A stretch of 32,690 nt of DNA, taken from positions 1 to 32,690 of IMG/VR virus record IMGVR_UViG_3300042465_006006, one strand, 5' to 3'. Positions 20,669-27,246 of the stretch are shown here, one piece after another. The position numbers and the translations under genes were made by a program. The stretch's first letter is position 1. Every line of letters begins with the position of its first letter. The stretch is from a virus. Below the pieces are notes generated by a model that was not told the DNA's origin, did not search any database, and was given only the letters and a program-made list of their open reading frames with translations.

Positions 20669-20771
20669 ATTCTCAGTCGGCCCGCGCCTCCCGGTCGATG
20701 GCTCCTTTGCCGTAAGAAGCGGGTCGGCTGAGAATCTCTTGCGAGCATTCTCAGAATGCAAGCAAGCTGAG
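20669..20771 (+). promoter_or_regulatory. Leader with mutually exclusive hairpins (ATTCTCAG/CTGAGAAT repeats)
   Basis: The leader holds ATTCTCAG at 20669-20676, CTGAGAAT at 20728-20735 and ATTCTCAG again at 20747-20754. The middle element can pair with either outer one. Upstream pairing extends over 16 bases with two mismatches (20669-20684 with 20720-20735). Downstream pairing makes an 8-bp hairpin with an 11-nt loop. A third option is the perfect palindrome GCATTCT-C-AGAATGC (20745-20759). This could be a two-state leader RNA, or repeated DNA sites for a repressor. It overlaps no credible gene. Confidence 0.5.
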
Positions 20772-20793
20772 ACTTATTGATATGGAGATAGAT

Positions 20794-21282
20794 ATGGCTA
20801 AACAACGCAAAAATAAGAGCGGTTTTGTATTCGAGAACAAGATCGACTTCACCAATTGGGATTTCACTTCAATTGAACACCAGCTTGAAGATGCAATTCG
20901 AGTTTTTGAAGATTCTATGGAAAAAGCCGTAGAAAAATCGACAGAAGCTTTGCGTAGAAAAATAGACCGCGCAGATATGAGAGCCAGAAAAATTGTCGCA
21001 GAAGCTTTGCAAATTTCCTTTGAAAGGGAACTGACTACTTATTTCTGGGATGTCTATGGAGAGCCAGAAATAATTACAATTTATCTGTCTGATCTATGCG
21101 AGGACGGATATGAAATTAAGCTTGATCTAAAGGCGGCGATTAAAGAGGCGCTGATAAATCGTTGTGATAAAGATGGCTATGCATATGAAGAGTCAGAGTC
21201 CGCAATAGTTAAATTCGCTGACATGCTCAAAGAACTTGAGAATGAAGTTCGCACTGCGATCCGCCCTAAAGAGGAGGCGTGA
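20794..21282 (+). CDS. Hypothetical early helical protein
   Basis: A 162-residue protein. Start chosen at 20794 (MAKQRKNKSG) because GGAG lies 6 nt upstream. An ATG at 20782 in the same frame is part of the recurrent ATGGAGATAGATATG start cassette. The N-terminus is basic, then a long charged helix (HQLEDAIRVFEDSMEKAVEKSTEALRRKIDRADMRARKIVAEAL), then a mixed segment (YGEPEIITIYLSDLCEDGYEIKLDLKAAI) and a helical, acidic C-terminus. It is AT-richer than the virion genes. First gene of the rightward early operon, directly before a DNA methyltransferase. No family recognised. Confidence 0.55.
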   Translation: MAKQRKNKSGFVFENKIDFTNWDFTSIEHQLEDAIRVFEDSMEKAVEKSTEALRRKIDRADMRARKIVAEALQISFERELTTYFWDVYGEPEIITIYLSDLCEDGYEIKLDLKAAIKEALINRCDKDGYAYEESESAIVKFADMLKELENEVRTAIRPKEEA

Positions 21283-21283
21283 T

Positions 21284-21916
21284 ATGGCGCAGAACACTTC
21301 GCACGCTGTCATGGCGCAGCGCAAAGAACCATCAGATAGTTTGGATGACTTCCCAACGCCGCCTTGGGCGACACGCGCTCTTATTGAGCATGTGATCGGC
21401 AAGGAATGGTGCAAGGGCAGAGTATGCTGGGAGCCGGCTTCCAATCGTGGATATATGTCTCGCGCATTGCAAGAATATTTCCACTATGTTCTCGAAACTG
21501 ACATCGTTAATTATGGCCGTGGCGGCGTCTTCGATTTTCTTTCTTCTGAAGGGATGGTTACTAATCCTTCGATCCATTGGATAATCACAAACCCTCCCTT
21601 CAATAAAGCGCAGCAGTTTATTGAGAGGGCGCAGAAGATTGCCAATCAAGGCGTCGCTATGCTTGTGCGCACGTCCTTCCTCGAAAGCGTCATGCGCTAT
21701 CAGACGCTGTTCATGCATAACCCGCCTGACATCGTTGCGCAGTTCTCTGAGCGCGTCCCGATGGTGAAGGGACGCTATGATCCGAAGGCATCTACTGCTA
21801 CAAGTTATGCTTGGCTCGTTTGGTATTCTGGGCCGAAGCAAGCAAATAATCAGACCGTCCTGATGTGGATCCCTCCATGCAGGAAGCAATTAGAAAGAAC
21901 TACAGATCATGTCTAA
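21284..21916 (+). CDS. DNA adenine N6-methyltransferase-like protein
   Basis: Start at 21284, with GAGGAGG upstream; the earlier in-frame ATG at 21236 lies inside the previous gene. The 210-residue product carries NPPF at residues 103-106 (IITNPPFNKAQQF), the catalytic motif IV of adenine N6-methyltransferases. DFPTPPWATRALIEHV near the N-terminus is a segment common in phage DNA methyltransferases. The SAM-binding motif I, here WEPASNRGYMS, is altered from the usual EPAxGxG (Asn-Arg replace the first Gly), which may affect activity. It might protect phage DNA from restriction or mark it for host GANTC-reading proteins. The target site is unknown. It overlaps the resolvase gene by 8 nt. Confidence 0.75.
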   Translation: MAQNTSHAVMAQRKEPSDSLDDFPTPPWATRALIEHVIGKEWCKGRVCWEPASNRGYMSRALQEYFHYVLETDIVNYGRGGVFDFLSSEGMVTNPSIHWIITNPPFNKAQQFIERAQKIANQGVAMLVRTSFLESVMRYQTLFMHNPPDIVAQFSERVPMVKGRYDPKASTATSYAWLVWYSGPKQANNQTVLMWIPPCRKQLERTTDHV

Positions 21917-22370
21917 CGCCATTTGCTTTATGGGCGTCGATCCCGGCATATCGGGAGCAATTGCTTTCTATTACCCGGAACATCCCGACAACGTCGCGGT
22001 CTATGACATGCCGTCGATTGGCAAGGAAGTGAACTGCGCGGAATTGACGGCGCTCATAAGGCAATATCGTCCAGACTATGCAGTCGTCGAATCTGTGCAC
22101 GCGATGCCGAAGCAAGGTGTAAGCAGCAGTTTTAACTTTGGCATGTCTTATGGCATGGCGCGTGGCGTCATTGCAGCATGCGGCGTTCCGCAGCAGCTGG
22201 TGGCGCCAACAAAATGGAAGAAGTTCTTTGCGCTTACGTCCGACAAGGATACGTCTCGCCGGCTGGCGATATTGACTTGGCCGAACAGCGAGCACTTCAA
22301 TAGAAAGAAAGATGATGGCCGGGCGGAAGCGGCTTTGTTGGCTGTCTATGGGGCAAAGACGCAAGCATAA
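21909..22370 (+). CDS. RuvC-like Holliday-junction resolvase
   Basis: A 153-residue RNase H-fold nuclease. GVDPGISG carries the first metal Asp (Asp11), AVVES the second acid (Glu61), and the C-terminal KKDDGRAEAALLA the remaining acids (Asp135/Asp136). The order and spacing match RuvC-type crossover-junction endonucleases. It would resolve branched replication intermediates before packaging, working with the nuclease and putative SSB of the leftward operon. The start overlaps the methyltransferase gene by 8 nt. A strong hairpin follows the stop at once. Confidence 0.88.
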   Translation: MSNAICFMGVDPGISGAIAFYYPEHPDNVAVYDMPSIGKEVNCAELTALIRQYRPDYAVVESVHAMPKQGVSSSFNFGMSYGMARGVIAACGVPQQLVAPTKWKKFFALTSDKDTSRRLAILTWPNSEHFNRKKDDGRAEAALLAVYGAKTQA

Positions 22371-22376
22371 AAAAGA

Positions 22377-22398
22377 AAGCCCCGCGCGAACGGGGCTT
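22377..22398. terminator. Strong hairpin after the resolvase gene
   Basis: AAGCCCCG (22377-22384) pairs perfectly with CGGGGCTT (22391-22398) over a 6-nt loop. The T-rich tract lies on the minus-strand side (TCTTTTTT beyond 22377), so it is a textbook intrinsic terminator leftward. Rightward it has no T-run and may act as an mRNA 3'-end stabiliser or weak terminator. A fresh promoter follows at 22442. Confidence 0.6.
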
Positions 22399-22441
22399 AG
22401 TCAAAGAGAGGAAACGCACAATGAAGAAACCATTGAGCAAT

Positions 22442-22469
22442 TTGACTGATATCACATCCTGTGTATGAT
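22442..22469 (+). promoter_or_regulatory. Promoter with embedded dyad, upstream of the prim-pol operon
   Basis: TTGACT (22442-22447), 16-nt spacer, TATGAT (22464-22469). The -35 forms an inverted repeat with AGTCAA (22470-22475) just after the -10. The spacer contains a second dyad, CACA-tcc-TGTG. This looks like an operator overlapping the promoter. Placed after the hairpin that ends the resolvase message, it would restart transcription into the 22534 and prim-pol/helicase genes. Confidence 0.6.
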
Positions 22470-22533
22470 AGTCAATGACTCAATGCCGGCTTGCGAGGGA
22501 TCGTATAGCCTAGAGGGCGGTCAGGAGAAAATC

Positions 22534-22905
22534 ATGAGAAATACTTATGTCTACGAATTTTATGTAATGGATGACGGCTGGGAGATGTTCCCAACCGTTC
22601 AAGAGACAATCGTAAAAATTGGTGAAACAGTAAATAATTCTTTAGGACAGGATACTGGCTGTTTCTTGCTGGAAGACTTTATGGAATTTAGACATAGAGC
22701 CCTCAAAGCAGCAGATATTGCAGACACCAGCAAAGGGTTTTCAACTCCGATTTATACCATGCCTTTGGTCGACAATTTTAGACCATCCTACGCGCTTGCG
22801 TGGAAAGCTGCTAAGGGCGGATGGTGTATTGTTGTATCGGAAGAAAGATTGTTGTGGCTCGAAAATATTGAGAGCTGCAAGCTTAAAATAATCGACAATC
22901 TTTAA
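22534..22905 (+). CDS. Hypothetical protein upstream of primase-helicase
   Basis: A 123-residue product. Start chosen at 22534 (MRNTYVYEFYVMDDG) with AGGAG 6 nt upstream; an in-frame ATG at 22465 overlaps the promoter -10. The sequence reads as a mixed alpha/beta fold with conserved-looking aromatics (ALAWKAAKGGWCIVVSEERLLWLENIE). No family recognised. Its position between an early promoter and the prim-pol/helicase points to a replication accessory role. AT-richer than the virion genes. Confidence 0.55.
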   Translation: MRNTYVYEFYVMDDGWEMFPTVQETIVKIGETVNNSLGQDTGCFLLEDFMEFRHRALKAADIADTSKGFSTPIYTMPLVDNFRPSYALAWKAAKGGWCIVVSEERLLWLENIESCKLKIIDNL

Positions 22906-22919
22906 TAAGGTCTATTGAT

Positions 22920-25196
22920 ATGCTCTCTGACGCCGAACTTCAGGCGTTGATAGATGATGTCGAAAGCGATTTCCCATCATACTCATCATACGCAAAGCTA
23001 TATCGCCATTACGGCATGCAAGTCGTTCCCGCTAACTTCCCAAACGAAGTTAAGGAATGGAAGCGTCCACACTATGAATTAAAGTGGAAGCAATACCAAA
23101 AGACAATGATGGAAGACCAAGAGTTCGATGCACTCTATGGTCTTGGCGCAAAGTATGCTGGGCGCCAGAATATGGGTCTTATTACGGGCGTAAGCCCTCG
23201 ACGGATTGTCGTCGTCGATCTTGATGCGCATAAAAATCCAAAGGCTGAAATATGGTGGCAAGGCATACACGCCGACCACAACATGGGCATCATGTCGCAC
23301 ACTGTCGCGCAAAGAACAGGCGGCGGCGGAGAGCAACATTTCTTTATTGCGCCGGACGGTTTTATTTGTCCGACAAATAGAAACTCTTCGTGGGGCGTCG
23401 ATAGCCGCGGCGATGGCGGGTTCGCCATGCTGGCTCCTTCAAAGCATGAAAGCGGTAAGCTTTATGAATGGATGGAAGGTCAGGCGCCGTGGGAATGTGA
23501 TTTTGAAGTCATGCCCGAATGGATGTGCCGGGAAATAGAATCCATTCTTGGTGTCGGAATTTCTCATAGAGACTCCGGGTCTCGCACAAGAACAGATACG
23601 CCCGCACACAGATCCGATGAATGGGGAAAGATCGTAGACGGCCGCGAAGACCTTATGACAAAGATGGTCTTCAGATCTGTGCTTGGTCTTTATCGCGATT
23701 GCCCGATCATGCCGTCAGACCGCGAGCAGGCTGATGCAATGGAGAATTGCTTCCAGTCATATGTGATGGCAGTCGATACGCGAATTGAAGGATCGACAAA
23801 ATCCAAAGAGGATCTGCTTGAGCAAGAAGGCAGAGGTCGGTCGCTATTTATCAAGAAATGGCGCGCAACCATCCTTCAATGGGATGAAAAGATCAGCAAG
23901 GAAGCTGCGCGCCCTTTTGTAAAAGAGACACCTGAGAAGATAGATCCATTTTCTGAGCCGCCGCCAAGTGCCGGTTCGAAGGAAGAGAAGAAAGAAGAAG
24001 AACCTTCCACTAAAGAAGAAGAAAAGCCCGAAACAGACGACGACGAGTTTGCCCCGAAGAAGAAGAAACTTCTAAAGCTATACACAATTGACGAGATCGA
24101 ATCGTTTGGGCCGGTCAAGGCTCTGATCGAAGACACCGTCGCCGAAGGAAGCTTAGGGTTTATTTATGGGCCTCCCGGATGTGGCAAGACGTTCGTCGCC
24201 CTATCGATGGGCCTGAGTATCGCCTATGGCCGGGAGCATTGGCTATGGGACAAGAGAATCAATAGAGGCGGCCCCGTAATCTATATCAGCCTTGAAGGTA
24301 AGTCCGACCTTGGCAACCGCATCAAGGCTTGGAAGATCCATAATGGCATCTCCCATAATGATCAGAACTTCAGGGCTATATTCGATCAGGTGAACTTCAC
24401 CCGACAGGAAAGCATTAAGATATTTGTCGACTCTTTGGATGAATATATGTCGGCATACTCCCCGCCGTCCATGATCTTCATAGATACGGTTTCGAGGTCT
24501 ATCGCCGGCGGCGGGGAAAACGACGCAGAGGAGATATCGCTGTTCATTGAGACCTGCGGAAACCTCCAGAGGCGCTATTCCACAAACCTCACCGGGATCC
24601 ATCATACAGGCCGCTTTGGAACGAATATGCGCGGCTCCAGCGCCTTCGACGGCGGCGCCGACTTTATGTATCGGGTTGAGCGGGACAAGAAGGCTGGCCT
24701 GTCAGGATTGATCCATGCGGAGAAGATCAAGGCATACCCGGATATGTGGGAGATGCCCTTCAGGCTCGAAAAGATCACTCTGGATGACTTTGGCGCCCAA
24801 TCCAGCCTTGTCGCCACGTCTGAGCCTGAACAGGCCCCAGCTGGCGGTTCTGGGGCTTCTGAAGGCGGGTTCGGAGGTCATCAGGAGACCGGCTTTACGA
24901 CCATCGGCAGGAAGCTCCCTGATGCCGTTTGGAAGGCGATATTCGATGAGGTCGACCAAGCCAAACAGGAAGGTATTCCTTGGAGCGAGTTCAAGCAGTC
25001 AGGAAGCAGATACGCCGGAACGAGGATTATGGAGATTATTTATTCTCACGGGATCGACACAATGAACGAATCGGACGCTGATGCGATTGTTCGAAAGCTG
25101 ACCGGAAAACTTTACCTCGTCACCGTCGAATACATGCACAACAAGATGCTCAAGAAGGGTCTGGAAGTGAGAAACAGACCGTCTTTTAACGTGTGA
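22920..25196 (+). CDS. Bifunctional prim-pol and AAA helicase (RepA-like)
   Basis: A 758-residue replication protein. Residues about 20-200 are a bifunctional primase-polymerase (AEP) domain: VVVDLDAHK with the metal pair Asp100/Asp102, GGGGEQHFF with the active-site histidine, and AMLAPSKH. Residues about 343-385 form a Glu/Lys-rich linker. From about 395 is a RecA-fold helicase of the RepA/AAA_25 type: Walker A GPPGCGKT at 417-424, Walker B MIFIDT at 518-523, a GIHHTG sensor, and RGSSAFDGGADFMYRVER. It would open, unwind and prime phage DNA. The start is supported by AAGG and the recurrent ATTGATATG context. An iteron-like region follows directly. Confidence 0.88.
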   Translation: MLSDAELQALIDDVESDFPSYSSYAKLYRHYGMQVVPANFPNEVKEWKRPHYELKWKQYQKTMMEDQEFDALYGLGAKYAGRQNMGLITGVSPRRIVVVDLDAHKNPKAEIWWQGIHADHNMGIMSHTVAQRTGGGGEQHFFIAPDGFICPTNRNSSWGVDSRGDGGFAMLAPSKHESGKLYEWMEGQAPWECDFEVMPEWMCREIESILGVGISHRDSGSRTRTDTPAHRSDEWGKIVDGREDLMTKMVFRSVLGLYRDCPIMPSDREQADAMENCFQSYVMAVDTRIEGSTKSKEDLLEQEGRGRSLFIKKWRATILQWDEKISKEAARPFVKETPEKIDPFSEPPPSAGSKEEKKEEEPSTKEEEKPETDDDEFAPKKKKLLKLYTIDEIESFGPVKALIEDTVAEGSLGFIYGPPGCGKTFVALSMGLSIAYGREHWLWDKRINRGGPVIYISLEGKSDLGNRIKAWKIHNGISHNDQNFRAIFDQVNFTRQESIKIFVDSLDEYMSAYSPPSMIFIDTVSRSIAGGGENDAEEISLFIETCGNLQRRYSTNLTGIHHTGRFGTNMRGSSAFDGGADFMYRVERDKKAGLSGLIHAEKIKAYPDMWEMPFRLEKITLDDFGAQSSLVATSEPEQAPAGGSGASEGGFGGHQETGFTTIGRKLPDAVWKAIFDEVDQAKQEGIPWSEFKQSGSRYAGTRIMEIIYSHGIDTMNESDADAIVRKLTGKLYLVTVEYMHNKMLKKGLEVRNRPSFNV

Positions 25197-25223
25197 TTTT
25201 GGAGAGCCGAAATGAACGTATAC

Positions 25224-25328
25224 GCGGGGGTTAAGTCATTGTTTTTATTTGTGCGCGGGGGTCTGCGGGGGTCTGTGTTTTTATTTGCGGGGGTTAAGTC
25301 ATTGATTCTACAGGGTCGCGGGGGTCTG
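25224..25328 (+). repeat. GCGGGGGT direct repeats (iteron-like), origin candidate
   Basis: Five copies of GCGGGGGT start at 25224, 25255, 25265, 25287 and 25318. Two extend to GCGGGGGTTAAGTCATTG (25224-25241 and 25287-25304) and three to GCGGGGGTCTG. The long copies are 63 bp apart, as are the first and last short copies (25255 and 25318). AT-rich TTTTTATTT tracts separate the G-rich blocks. Iterated sites next to a helicase gene, with an adjoining AT tract, are how many replicons mark their origin. No function is proved. A 75-codon frame through this stretch shows no protein features. Confidence 0.6.
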
Positions 25329-25340
25329 AGGTTTCCCCCC

Positions 25341-25355
25341 GCCCCCTACGGGGGC
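25341..25355. repeat. Perfect GCCCCC-TAC-GGGGGC hairpin
   Basis: A 6-bp GC stem with a 3-nt loop, immediately right of the GCGGGGGT repeats and left of a CTCGCTTCGCCC/GCGCTTGCGC-rich stretch. It could be a transcription terminator without T-run or a replication fork structure. The whole gap 25197-25469 is otherwise without a credible gene. Confidence 0.5.
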
Positions 25356-25412
25356 TCCCCCCTTCCTGCTCGCTTCGCCCTGCGCTTGCGCTCCGGGCTC
25401 GCTGCGCGGCGC

Positions 25413-25442
25413 TTGACAGACGCCGCCGGCGTGCGTTAGCCT
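25413..25442 (+). promoter_or_regulatory. Rightward promoter with spacer palindrome
   Basis: CGCTTGACA (-35 TTGACA at 25413-25418), then after 18 nt TAGCCT (25437-25442). The spacer contains a perfect palindrome, ACGCCG-C-CGGCGT (25420-25432), an operator candidate. The CGCTTGAC context is shared with the two minus-strand promoters at 28733 and 29748. It would drive the genes from 25470 on. Confidence 0.5.
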
Positions 25443-25469
25443 CGACGGCGTTGATATTGAGATTAGGTT

Positions 25470-25742
25470 ATGACTGGTAATCGCAAGGATGGCGTTATCG
25501 CCAAAACTCGTCAGTGGGTGCTAATCGAACGACCGGGCGAAGGCGAGAACGGCTGGATGAACATTTGGCTGTCGGCGCGTAGTTCGGATGTTCTTAGGAA
25601 AGACTTCCTGATCAGTTTTAATGTTCGAACGGGCAGGTTCAGCGACTGCCCGGCGTGGAAGAAGCTGAACACCGGATACCCCGATATGGCGGATTGGGCC
25701 ATAGAGGCCGTTCGGAAGAGATATCGATTGAGAGGAGATTGA
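25470..25742 (+). CDS. Hypothetical protein
   Basis: A 90-residue protein (MTGNRKDGVIAKTRQWVLIERPGEG) with a strand-rich, Trp-containing first half and a C-terminal helix (MADWAIEAVRKRYRLR). No family recognised. It follows the iteron-like gap and its promoter, and is the first of three closely spaced genes (1-nt gap, then 1-nt overlap). A weak AGG element precedes the ATG. Confidence 0.5.
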   Translation: MTGNRKDGVIAKTRQWVLIERPGEGENGWMNIWLSARSSDVLRKDFLISFNVRTGRFSDCPAWKKLNTGYPDMADWAIEAVRKRYRLRGD

Positions 25743-25968: not shown

Positions 25969-26645
25969 TGGCGAAGAGACCGTCAAGACCGCCGCCGCCG
26001 TCCGATAGATCAATACCTGTCGCAAGGGAGCCGGCGGCGCCGTGGCTTATTTCAAATGGGACTTACCTATCTGGTAGAGCCGCAATAGATGGCGCAGATG
26101 CGTTGGAAGTAGAATTAGAACTGAAATGGGGACGCGGAAGATTGCCGCTTCTGGTGTCTCAGGAACTTCGAGAAAAGTTTTATAGGCAAAAATATTTATT
26201 CAGTCATGCCCGGTGGAAGGGACAGCTAATTGATGTCCAGCGAGAATCGGAGCGCATGATTAAGGCATGGAAGGCGCTTGATAAGGCGGCGACAGAAGCC
26301 GGGTGCGTTCCTATAGACCCTGCCGTGTTTGAGGTGACGCTTGAAGACGGCACGGTCGCGGCAATTGTGAGGGAACCGGATCTTGTAAACAAAGTCATGG
26401 CTGATGGTCGGCGCGTAAACGTATATTCTCTTGAAGAGATAGGGCGCCTGATATTTTCATTTAAGGAAGTATTGGCGGTCAAGGAAGCGTTCCCCGGAGC
26501 AGAGGTCGTCCCTACAAAGATGAAAGTTGTAAATGCTCTTCATCAGCCATTAGACGGCGAAGGAGAGGGTATTCTTGACCCCGGCACGCCATTGGATGCT
26601 GTTGACGGATTCAACATAAAGGTCGGAGATGACATCTCATTTTAG
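25968..26645 (+). CDS. Hypothetical protein, early region
   Basis: A 225-residue product. Start chosen at 25968 (MAKRPSRPPPPS) because it forms a TAATG coupling with the previous gene and GGGAGGCGAG lies upstream; an earlier ATG at 25947 is inside that gene. After a Pro-rich N-terminus come helical segments (YRQKYLFSHARWKGQLIDVQRESERMIKAWKALDKAATEAG) and a beta-rich C-terminal half (VFEVTLEDGTVAAIVREPDL, VNVYSLEEIGRLIFSFKEVL). The family is not recognised. A clear terminator follows, so this is the last gene of its unit. Confidence 0.55.
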   Translation: MAKRPSRPPPPSDRSIPVAREPAAPWLISNGTYLSGRAAIDGADALEVELELKWGRGRLPLLVSQELREKFYRQKYLFSHARWKGQLIDVQRESERMIKAWKALDKAATEAGCVPIDPAVFEVTLEDGTVAAIVREPDLVNKVMADGRRVNVYSLEEIGRLIFSFKEVLAVKEAFPGAEVVPTKMKVVNALHQPLDGEGEGILDPGTPLDAVDGFNIKVGDDISF

Positions 26646-26660
26646 GGGTGGTATAAGACA

Positions 26661-26697
26661 AAGGCCAGCCGCTGTTGACGCAGCGCTGGCCTTTTAA
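26661..26697 (+). terminator. Rho-independent terminator
   Basis: AAGGCCAGC (26661-26669) pairs with GCTGGCCTT (26685-26693). An inner GCTG/CAGC stem closes a 6-nt loop, and a TTTT run follows. It ends the transcript of the 25470-26645 genes and stands just ahead of the HNH endonuclease gene. Confidence 0.85.
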
Positions 26698-26721
26698 CCT
26701 CTAACCCAATCGTGGTGGGCT

Positions 26722-27246
26722 ATGGCTAAAAAACATTTACCTGACATTGAGACTTTGCGTCAACTGCTTCGGTATGATCCCGAAGCAGGAAAATTGTATT
26801 GGTTGGATAGACAAAACAATAAATCATTCAATACTCGTTTTTCTGGTAAAGAAGCTGGAACAGCGAAAGATAGATATGGATATCTTCAAATAGAAATTAT
26901 TAATATAAACACAAGATCACACATAATTGCTTGGGCATTGCATTACGGATTATATCCATCTGATGAATTAGATCATATAAATGGAGACAGAGCGGATAAT
27001 AGAATAGTTAATTTAAGGGAAGCGACTAGATCGCAAAATAATATGAACACGGCATTGGCTAAAAATAATACTAGCGGGGCCAAGGGAGTGCACTTTTTCA
27101 AGGTAACTAATAAATGGAGTAGTTTTATAAAAATAAATAGAAAATCTATTCATCTTGGATATTTTCTAACATTTGAAGAAGCTGTTGACGCTCGTAAAAA
27201 AGCAGAGATAAGATATCACGGTGAATACGCGAGGAAATCGCAATGA
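26722..27246 (+). CDS. HNH homing endonuclease with AP2 DNA-binding domain
   Basis: A 174-residue selfish endonuclease. The HNH domain spans about residues 50-110, with SHIIAWALHYG (His67), DHINGD (84-89) and NLREAT (from Asn98). An AP2-type DNA-binding domain follows at about 118-165 (SGAKGVHFFKVTNKWSSFIKINRKSIHLGYFLTFEEAVDAR). It would cut cognate DNA lacking the insertion, spreading the element to related phages. The gene is clearly more AT-rich than its surroundings, a sign of recent transfer. It sits right after a strong terminator, and its stop overlaps the next start by 4 nt. Confidence 0.9.
   Translation: MAKKHLPDIETLRQLLRYDPEAGKLYWLDRQNNKSFNTRFSGKEAGTAKDRYGYLQIEIININTRSHIIAWALHYGLYPSDELDHINGDRADNRIVNLREATRSQNNMNTALAKNNTSGAKGVHFFKVTNKWSSFIKINRKSIHLGYFLTFEEAVDARKKAEIRYHGEYARKSQ

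Follow-up and report, generated by a model that had tools for sequence, protein, structure and literature searches.

The window analysed here comprises all 32,690 bp of an IMG/VR record and encodes a tail fibre and virion structural proteins. It also contains the gene of a 758-aa protein in which Pfam identified a Prim-Pol domain (aa 29-201, 1.4e-18) and an AAA_25 (RepA-type) helicase domain (aa 383-564, 2.8e-30), and whose PHROG matches are DnaB-like or primase-helicase proteins. This reading frame ends, as the initial annotation had stated, right before an array of short direct repeats, which lies 28-129 bp downstream of the gene (Table 1). Small uncharacterised genes follow the array (25470-25742 and the next one); they gave no family match in Pfam or PHROG, and hence no RepC-type iteron binder was recognised among them.

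Table 1. Features of the helicase gene and of the repeat region at its 3' end (positions in the window)
Feature	Position	Strand	Basis or remark
Gene of the 758-aa Prim-Pol / AAA_25 (RepA-type) helicase, candidate initiator	22920..25196	+	Pfam
Mosaic breakpoint	24870		3' DNA (C-terminal domain, array, next genes) close to G002/G003, upstream coding DNA not
Predicted winged helix at the helicase C-terminus, candidate iteron-binding domain	24921..25169	+	AlphaFold2, structure matches, covariation with array
75-aa ORF across the array	25212..25439	+	probably no gene; relatives solely in near-identical phages
Iteron 1, GCGGGGGT	25224..25231	+	motif count with shuffles
Shared element copy 1, TAAGTCATTG(TTT)	25232..25241	+	comparison with relatives
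Iteron 2, GCGGGGGT	25255..25262	+	motif count with shuffles
Iteron 3, GCGGGGGT	25265..25272	+	motif count with shuffles
Iteron 4, GCGGGGGT	25287..25294	+	motif count with shuffles
Shared element copy 2, TAAGTCATTG(ATT); offset to copy 1, 63 bp	25295..25304	+	repeat and relatives
Iteron 5, GCGGGGGT	25318..25325	+	motif count with shuffles
GC-rich perfect hairpin, 6-bp stem, 3-nt loop, closing end of the array	25341..25355	+	recurs there in relatives
CGCT-rich stretch, hairpin to promoter	~25365..25412	+	similar in L016, L029, L065
Promoter-like TTGACA-N18-TAGCCT of the next gene	25413..25442	+	L015 keeps both hexamers and their spacing but not the palindrome

All five copies of GCGGGGGT reported in the initial annotation were found, and neither strand of the remaining window holds a further one (0.69 expected). 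None of 100 dinucleotide shuffles of the window reached five copies, and the highest repeat density of the locus was that of the 350 nt past the helicase reading frame, with 0 of 182 other intervals reaching five copies. The exact 18-bp repeat that had been described is GCGGGGGTTAAGTCATTG (25224-25241 and 25287-25304, offset 63 bp), both copies of which are nested in a 50-nt repeat of 80% identity, and the AT tracts proposed between the repeats correspond to AT-rich spacers (TTTTTATTTG). Strong AT-richness is absent from the array, which therefore offers no clear unwinding element. The hairpin (GCCCCC-TAC-GGGGGC) and, 3' of it, the biased CGCT-rich stretch were likewise confirmed. A similar CGCT-rich stretch occurs downstream of prim-pol in L016, L029 and L065, where it lies between the hairpin and the TTGAC promoter that precedes the next gene. 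The claim of a promoter with a 13-bp palindrome was borne out in part: TTGACA (25413-25418) and TAGCCT (25437-25442) are spaced by 18 bp, the palindrome ACGCCGCCGGCGT lies in the spacer (25420-25432), and a diverged relative, L015, conserves TTGACR-N18-TAGCCT with a different spacer, but a strict sigma-70 consensus scan scored no promoter at 25413-25442.

The 75-aa ORF spanning the array, which the initial annotation had not mentioned, gave no family match in Pfam or PHROG. In L015, where the gene downstream shows 69% identity, the intergenic DNA retains TAAGTCATTGTTT, a hairpin at the corresponding place (GGGGCTTCGCCCC) and the promoter-like hexamers, and TAAGTCATTG is conserved in a reading frame different from that of the 75-aa ORF. 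Because of this frame change, the missing family and the restriction of its relatives to the same phages, we read the array region as non-coding. A structured or non-coding RNA was rejected, since the region folded no better than shuffles (z +1.13, matched by 176 of 200 shuffles) and Rfam gave no match at E<=1 for positions 25000-25700.

To place the array in its family, 80 relatives of the helicase were fetched and 45 non-redundant loci were compared, an array being defined as at least four copies within 3.3 kb. Such arrays were present downstream of the helicase gene in 24 of the 45 loci and upstream in three (p=1.7e-6), and those carrying the shared element described below were found 13 times downstream and never upstream (p=9e-5). 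No array within 3.3 kb was detected in 21 of the 45 relatives, some of whose records are short. In many relatives the helicase stop codon is followed by non-coding DNA with dense short direct repeats, the word being specific to the lineage (CGGAGGT, CGGAAGT, CGGAACT, GCGGAGA, GGGACAG or GCGGGGGT, among others; by relative, GCGGAAG in L069, GCGGAGA in L087, CGGAACT in L090, GCCGGAG in L070, GGGACAG in L095 and ACGGAGG in L115). Relatives of 34-63% identity have arrays of the same architecture directly 3' of the helicase gene or 0.9-3 kb beyond it, in the recurrent order of repeats, a TAAGTCATTGAAAWCATT-like element (TAAGTCATTGAAA), repeats, often a second element, repeats and a hairpin. The tie to the helicase is kept even though the next genes differ and the distance reaches up to 3 kb. 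L065 has six copies of CAACGCA on the upstream side of its prim-pol gene (1925-2221), unlike the downstream arrays of the other relatives. The formation of G-quadruplexes, an aside of the initial annotation, did not hold up as a conserved feature, since words such as CGGAAGT and CGGAACT contain no G-runs and the G-runs in the window array are mostly ~20-30 nt apart.

A related helicase is encoded by ~650 cultured phages. Arrays after related helicase/primase genes were also seen in named phages, with words that differ from those of the window. The cultured Rhizobium phage RHph_N65 (MN988536) carries 11 copies of GCGGAGA and an exact TAAGTCATTGAAATCATT immediately 3' of its putative helicase/primase gene, the uncultured record EBPR siphovirus 5 has eight copies of GCGGAAG, CGGTACA is repeated in Idiomarinaceae phage 1N2-2, and Salicola phage CGphi29 has a weak array of three GGGGACA. 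At the array, these four records contain CDS features alone and no origin annotation. No array was seen in the single stretch checked of Corynephage phi674, 3 kb past its RepA-like gene. A comparison of the window array with named phages and plasmids by DNA similarity returned nothing meaningful, and a literature search for prim-pol together with iterons in phages found no paper.

The C-terminal ~100 aa of the helicase are conserved across the family and are predicted to form a winged helix. AlphaFold2 modelled four helices followed by a beta hairpin, with a pLDDT of mostly 85-94 in this block, and the closest structural matches were winged helices, the best of which (BLM RQC domain, Z 7.4) indicates a common fold only, as Z is below 8. 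No sequence relative of this domain was found in the PDB at E<=1, and a Foldseek search returned nothing at E<=0.001.

With the shared element masked, the k-mer similarity of the arrays correlated with that of the C-termini when the helicase core was controlled for (partial r 0.35, p=0.002), a covariation to which physical linkage can contribute in part and which thus supports iteron binding short of proving it. When the C-terminus was controlled for, array similarity was not significantly associated with that of the core (p=0.24). The covariation persisted without the G002 copy and without two false automatic arrays that resemble coding repeats (L019 at +796, and L071; p=0.006), among element-bearing arrays (p=0.017) and among arrays separated from the gene by more than 300 nt (n=8, p=0.047). 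Array sequence therefore appears to track the C-terminal domain of the helicase and not its core. Individual genomes illustrate the same pattern: in G002 the primase and helicase parts share 39% identity with those of the window, the C-terminus is 97% identical and the array matches, whereas in L016 the former are 65% and 69% identical, the C-terminus 27%, and the GCGGGGGT array is absent. The breakpoint at 24870 falls inside the prim-pol gene, whose upstream part is diverged, while L002 is 97.8% identical to the window over 24870-25187. L095 and L164 have C-termini that look unlike the rest and quite different words (GGGACAG and ACCCGAC/GTCGGGT, respectively). From these comparisons, the pair of domain and iteron looks modular.

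Many arrays contain TAAGTCATTGAAATCATT as a common intervening element. In a blind search of all viral contigs this 18-mer yielded at least 120 matches compared with one for the reversed control, and the repeats around the matches vary (TGTCCAG, GTCGGGT, CAGTGGC, TAGTCCA). AAA_25 proteins were encoded by 20 of 90 upstream and 2 of 73 downstream neighbours of the 18-mer (Fisher p=1.8e-4, an approximate value because several neighbour proteins share one locus). The element thus prefers positions downstream of AAA_25 helicase genes, and the association is orientation-specific. Where two elements are present, they are spaced by 56, 57, 62, 63, 65, 76, 77 or 90 bp; in the absence of a single value, a fixed helical phasing of the pair was rejected. 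The consensus of IHF is WATCAANNNNTTR, which reads YAANNNNTTGATW in reverse. By inspection against this consensus, copy 2 in the window (25295) fits and copy 1 has one mismatch, whereas the family form TAAGTCATTGAAA deviates from it and its N positions are conserved as GTCA. It is therefore improbable that IHF alone reads the element.

Some copies of the 18-mer are not near helicase genes, among them copies next to tRNA 3' ends. It abuts the 3' end of tRNA-Lys in a bacterial genome (L242:227-320) and a tRNA-like 3' end in a viral contig with a tyrosine-integrase gene nearby (L196, near 5195). In the literature searched, TAAGTCATTGA was not found in connection with tRNA and integrase, matches to AAGTCATTGA were incidental sequence hits, and TAAGTCATTGAAATCATT has no name. 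We tentatively suggest, as a possibility somewhat short of an even chance, that the 18-20 nt element is a signal shared widely in mobile DNA and so far undescribed. A single conserved host factor would read it, phage origins would combine it with lineage-specific iterons that are interchangeable, and it would also be placed beside tRNA attachment sites. Under the same suggestion, Prim-Pol/RepA-type helicases would make up a large class of initiators that load themselves and have a swappable pair of winged helix and iteron.

The initial annotation had likened the array to an origin that a Rep-type helicase recognises, and the comparative evidence (downstream position, architecture of repeats and element, co-segregation with the predicted winged-helix C-terminus) supports this. 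We consider it likely that the region is an iteron-type replication origin with the phage's own Prim-Pol/RepA-type helicase as initiator, bound via its C-terminal domain (aa ~640-758). The winged helix would bind the GCGGGGGT repeats directly 3' of its own gene, the hexameric helicase would be loaded at the array, and the Prim-Pol domain would then prime. The TAAGTCATTG elements may represent a further signal of wider distribution, probably for strand opening, for priming or for a host or architectural factor, and the hairpin would stand between the origin and the next operon's promoter, separating the two. The GC-skew check proposed earlier, run on the complete relative G002, did not corroborate the array as origin: the minimum lies at 22.2 kb, ~5 kb upstream of the single array at 27.3 kb. 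Since this minimum sits where gene orientation changes, GC skew is uninformative at best and was dropped as an origin marker.

An origin of the same kind could also have its iterons bound by a separate small initiator or a host protein, with the Prim-Pol/helicase merely recruited. There is precedent in oriV of the IncQ plasmid RSF1010, where the roles are split among RepA, RepB' and RepC, with a separate RepC on the iterons and RepA unwinding (PMC4234260). The small genes 3' of the array would be candidates, and the distance of 1-3 kb between array and helicase gene in several relatives means that another protein could be the binder. Against this stand the predicted winged helix at the helicase C-terminus and the covariation with it, which extends even to arrays more than 300 nt away, and we regard a separate binder as unlikely. 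Still less probable is a role of the repeats in controlling the helicase operon or the next one, as operators or termination sites and not as an origin. Such a role would suit their location, with a transcription unit on either side and a hairpin and a conserved promoter 3' of the array, but the hairpin intervenes between them and the -35 element, which is ~90-190 bp downstream of the repeats, the tie to the helicase outlasts changes of the next genes and of distance, and the upstream neighbours of the 18-mer are enriched for RepA-type helicases and not for regulators.

The two tRNA-adjacent 18-mers, one with an integrase gene nearby, would be expected of an attP-like recombination site with arm-type repeats and a core element. 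We regard this as very improbable here, given that a tRNA-like end was found at one of 80 18-mer loci, that no tyrosine integrase was detected in five records (the window and relatives including the complete 59.4-kb G002, with positive controls), and that integrases made up 2 of 90 upstream and 2 of 73 downstream neighbours compared with the 20 upstream AAA_25 proteins. It is scarcely credible, finally, that the array is incidental, as part of a small repeat-containing gene or as a functionless GC-rich spacer. The 75-aa frame is open and preceded by a GGAGA-like site, and the 63-nt repeat comprises whole codons; set against this, the ORF has no family, the frame of TAAGTCATTG differs in L015, and the element itself contains stop codons in the arrays of many relatives.

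Among known systems, Rep of the staphylococcal pathogenicity islands (SaPIs) is a helicase of the SF3/AAA+ kind. The class to which it belongs (DUF927 or D5_N/Primase_Cterm) is distinct from the AAA_25, RecA-type helicase of the window, which is fused to Prim-Pol, so that the putative origin described here would work like SaPI Rep/ori without being a member of that system. Common to both are iterons directly downstream of the gene of the (here proposed) initiator helicase; in SaPI, they are recognised by the C-terminal domain of Rep, as summarised in the relevant passages of PMC7581432, citing Ubeda et al. 2007. The SaPI description in those passages does not include an element shared like TAAGTCATTG in the window family, and SaPIs are satellites without virion genes of their own, whereas the window phage has its own structural genes. 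The same passages describe the SCCmec helicase Cch2 as binding intergenic direct repeats downstream of its operon, which also serve as a priming site; it differs in having a D5_N/Primase_Cterm helicase, a separate polymerase-primase and three iterons (PMC7581432). In ORF904 of pRN1, Prim-Pol, helicase and winged helix are united in one protein, and a sequence required for replication is located just downstream of the gene (PMC4234260). There, however, the helicase belongs to SF3 and the site is a ~100-nt stem-loop without iterons, while the window has a 6-bp hairpin and no large stem-loop. RSF1010 resembles the window, with its AAA_25 domain and its proposed origin, in combining a RepA-type hexameric helicase and a primase at an iteron origin, which in RSF1010 involves three polypeptides and in the window would involve a single Prim-Pol/helicase polypeptide.

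If the proposed origin is correct, it would provide a sequence rule for locating origins in many uncultured and cultured phages with a RepA-type helicase or Prim-Pol, in which they are apparently unannotated. The modular-looking pair of domain and iteron would make a specificity code of the winged helix testable, and the shared 18-mer, more than 100-fold above its control, is a concrete target.

The array is found at 99% identity in the contigs G002 (59,540 bp) and G003 (20,781 bp), the former of which has a 127-bp terminal repeat and is therefore taken as a complete genome of 59.4 kb. Contigs behind L002, L007 and L014, from different metagenomes, end or begin at window positions 25187, 25346 and ~25520, at or just past the array, perhaps because assemblies were broken by the repeats or the hairpin, or owing to strain variation. 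A block of the window upstream of the breakpoint (20733-24870), with a methyltransferase, a RuvC-like resolvase and most of prim-pol, is diverged, while its flanks are largely 95-98% identical to relatives. Downstream of the array, at 26440-27244, the window has ~620 bp more than G002 and G003, including an HNH endonuclease gene (26722-27246), which is probably a recent insertion of a mobile gene.
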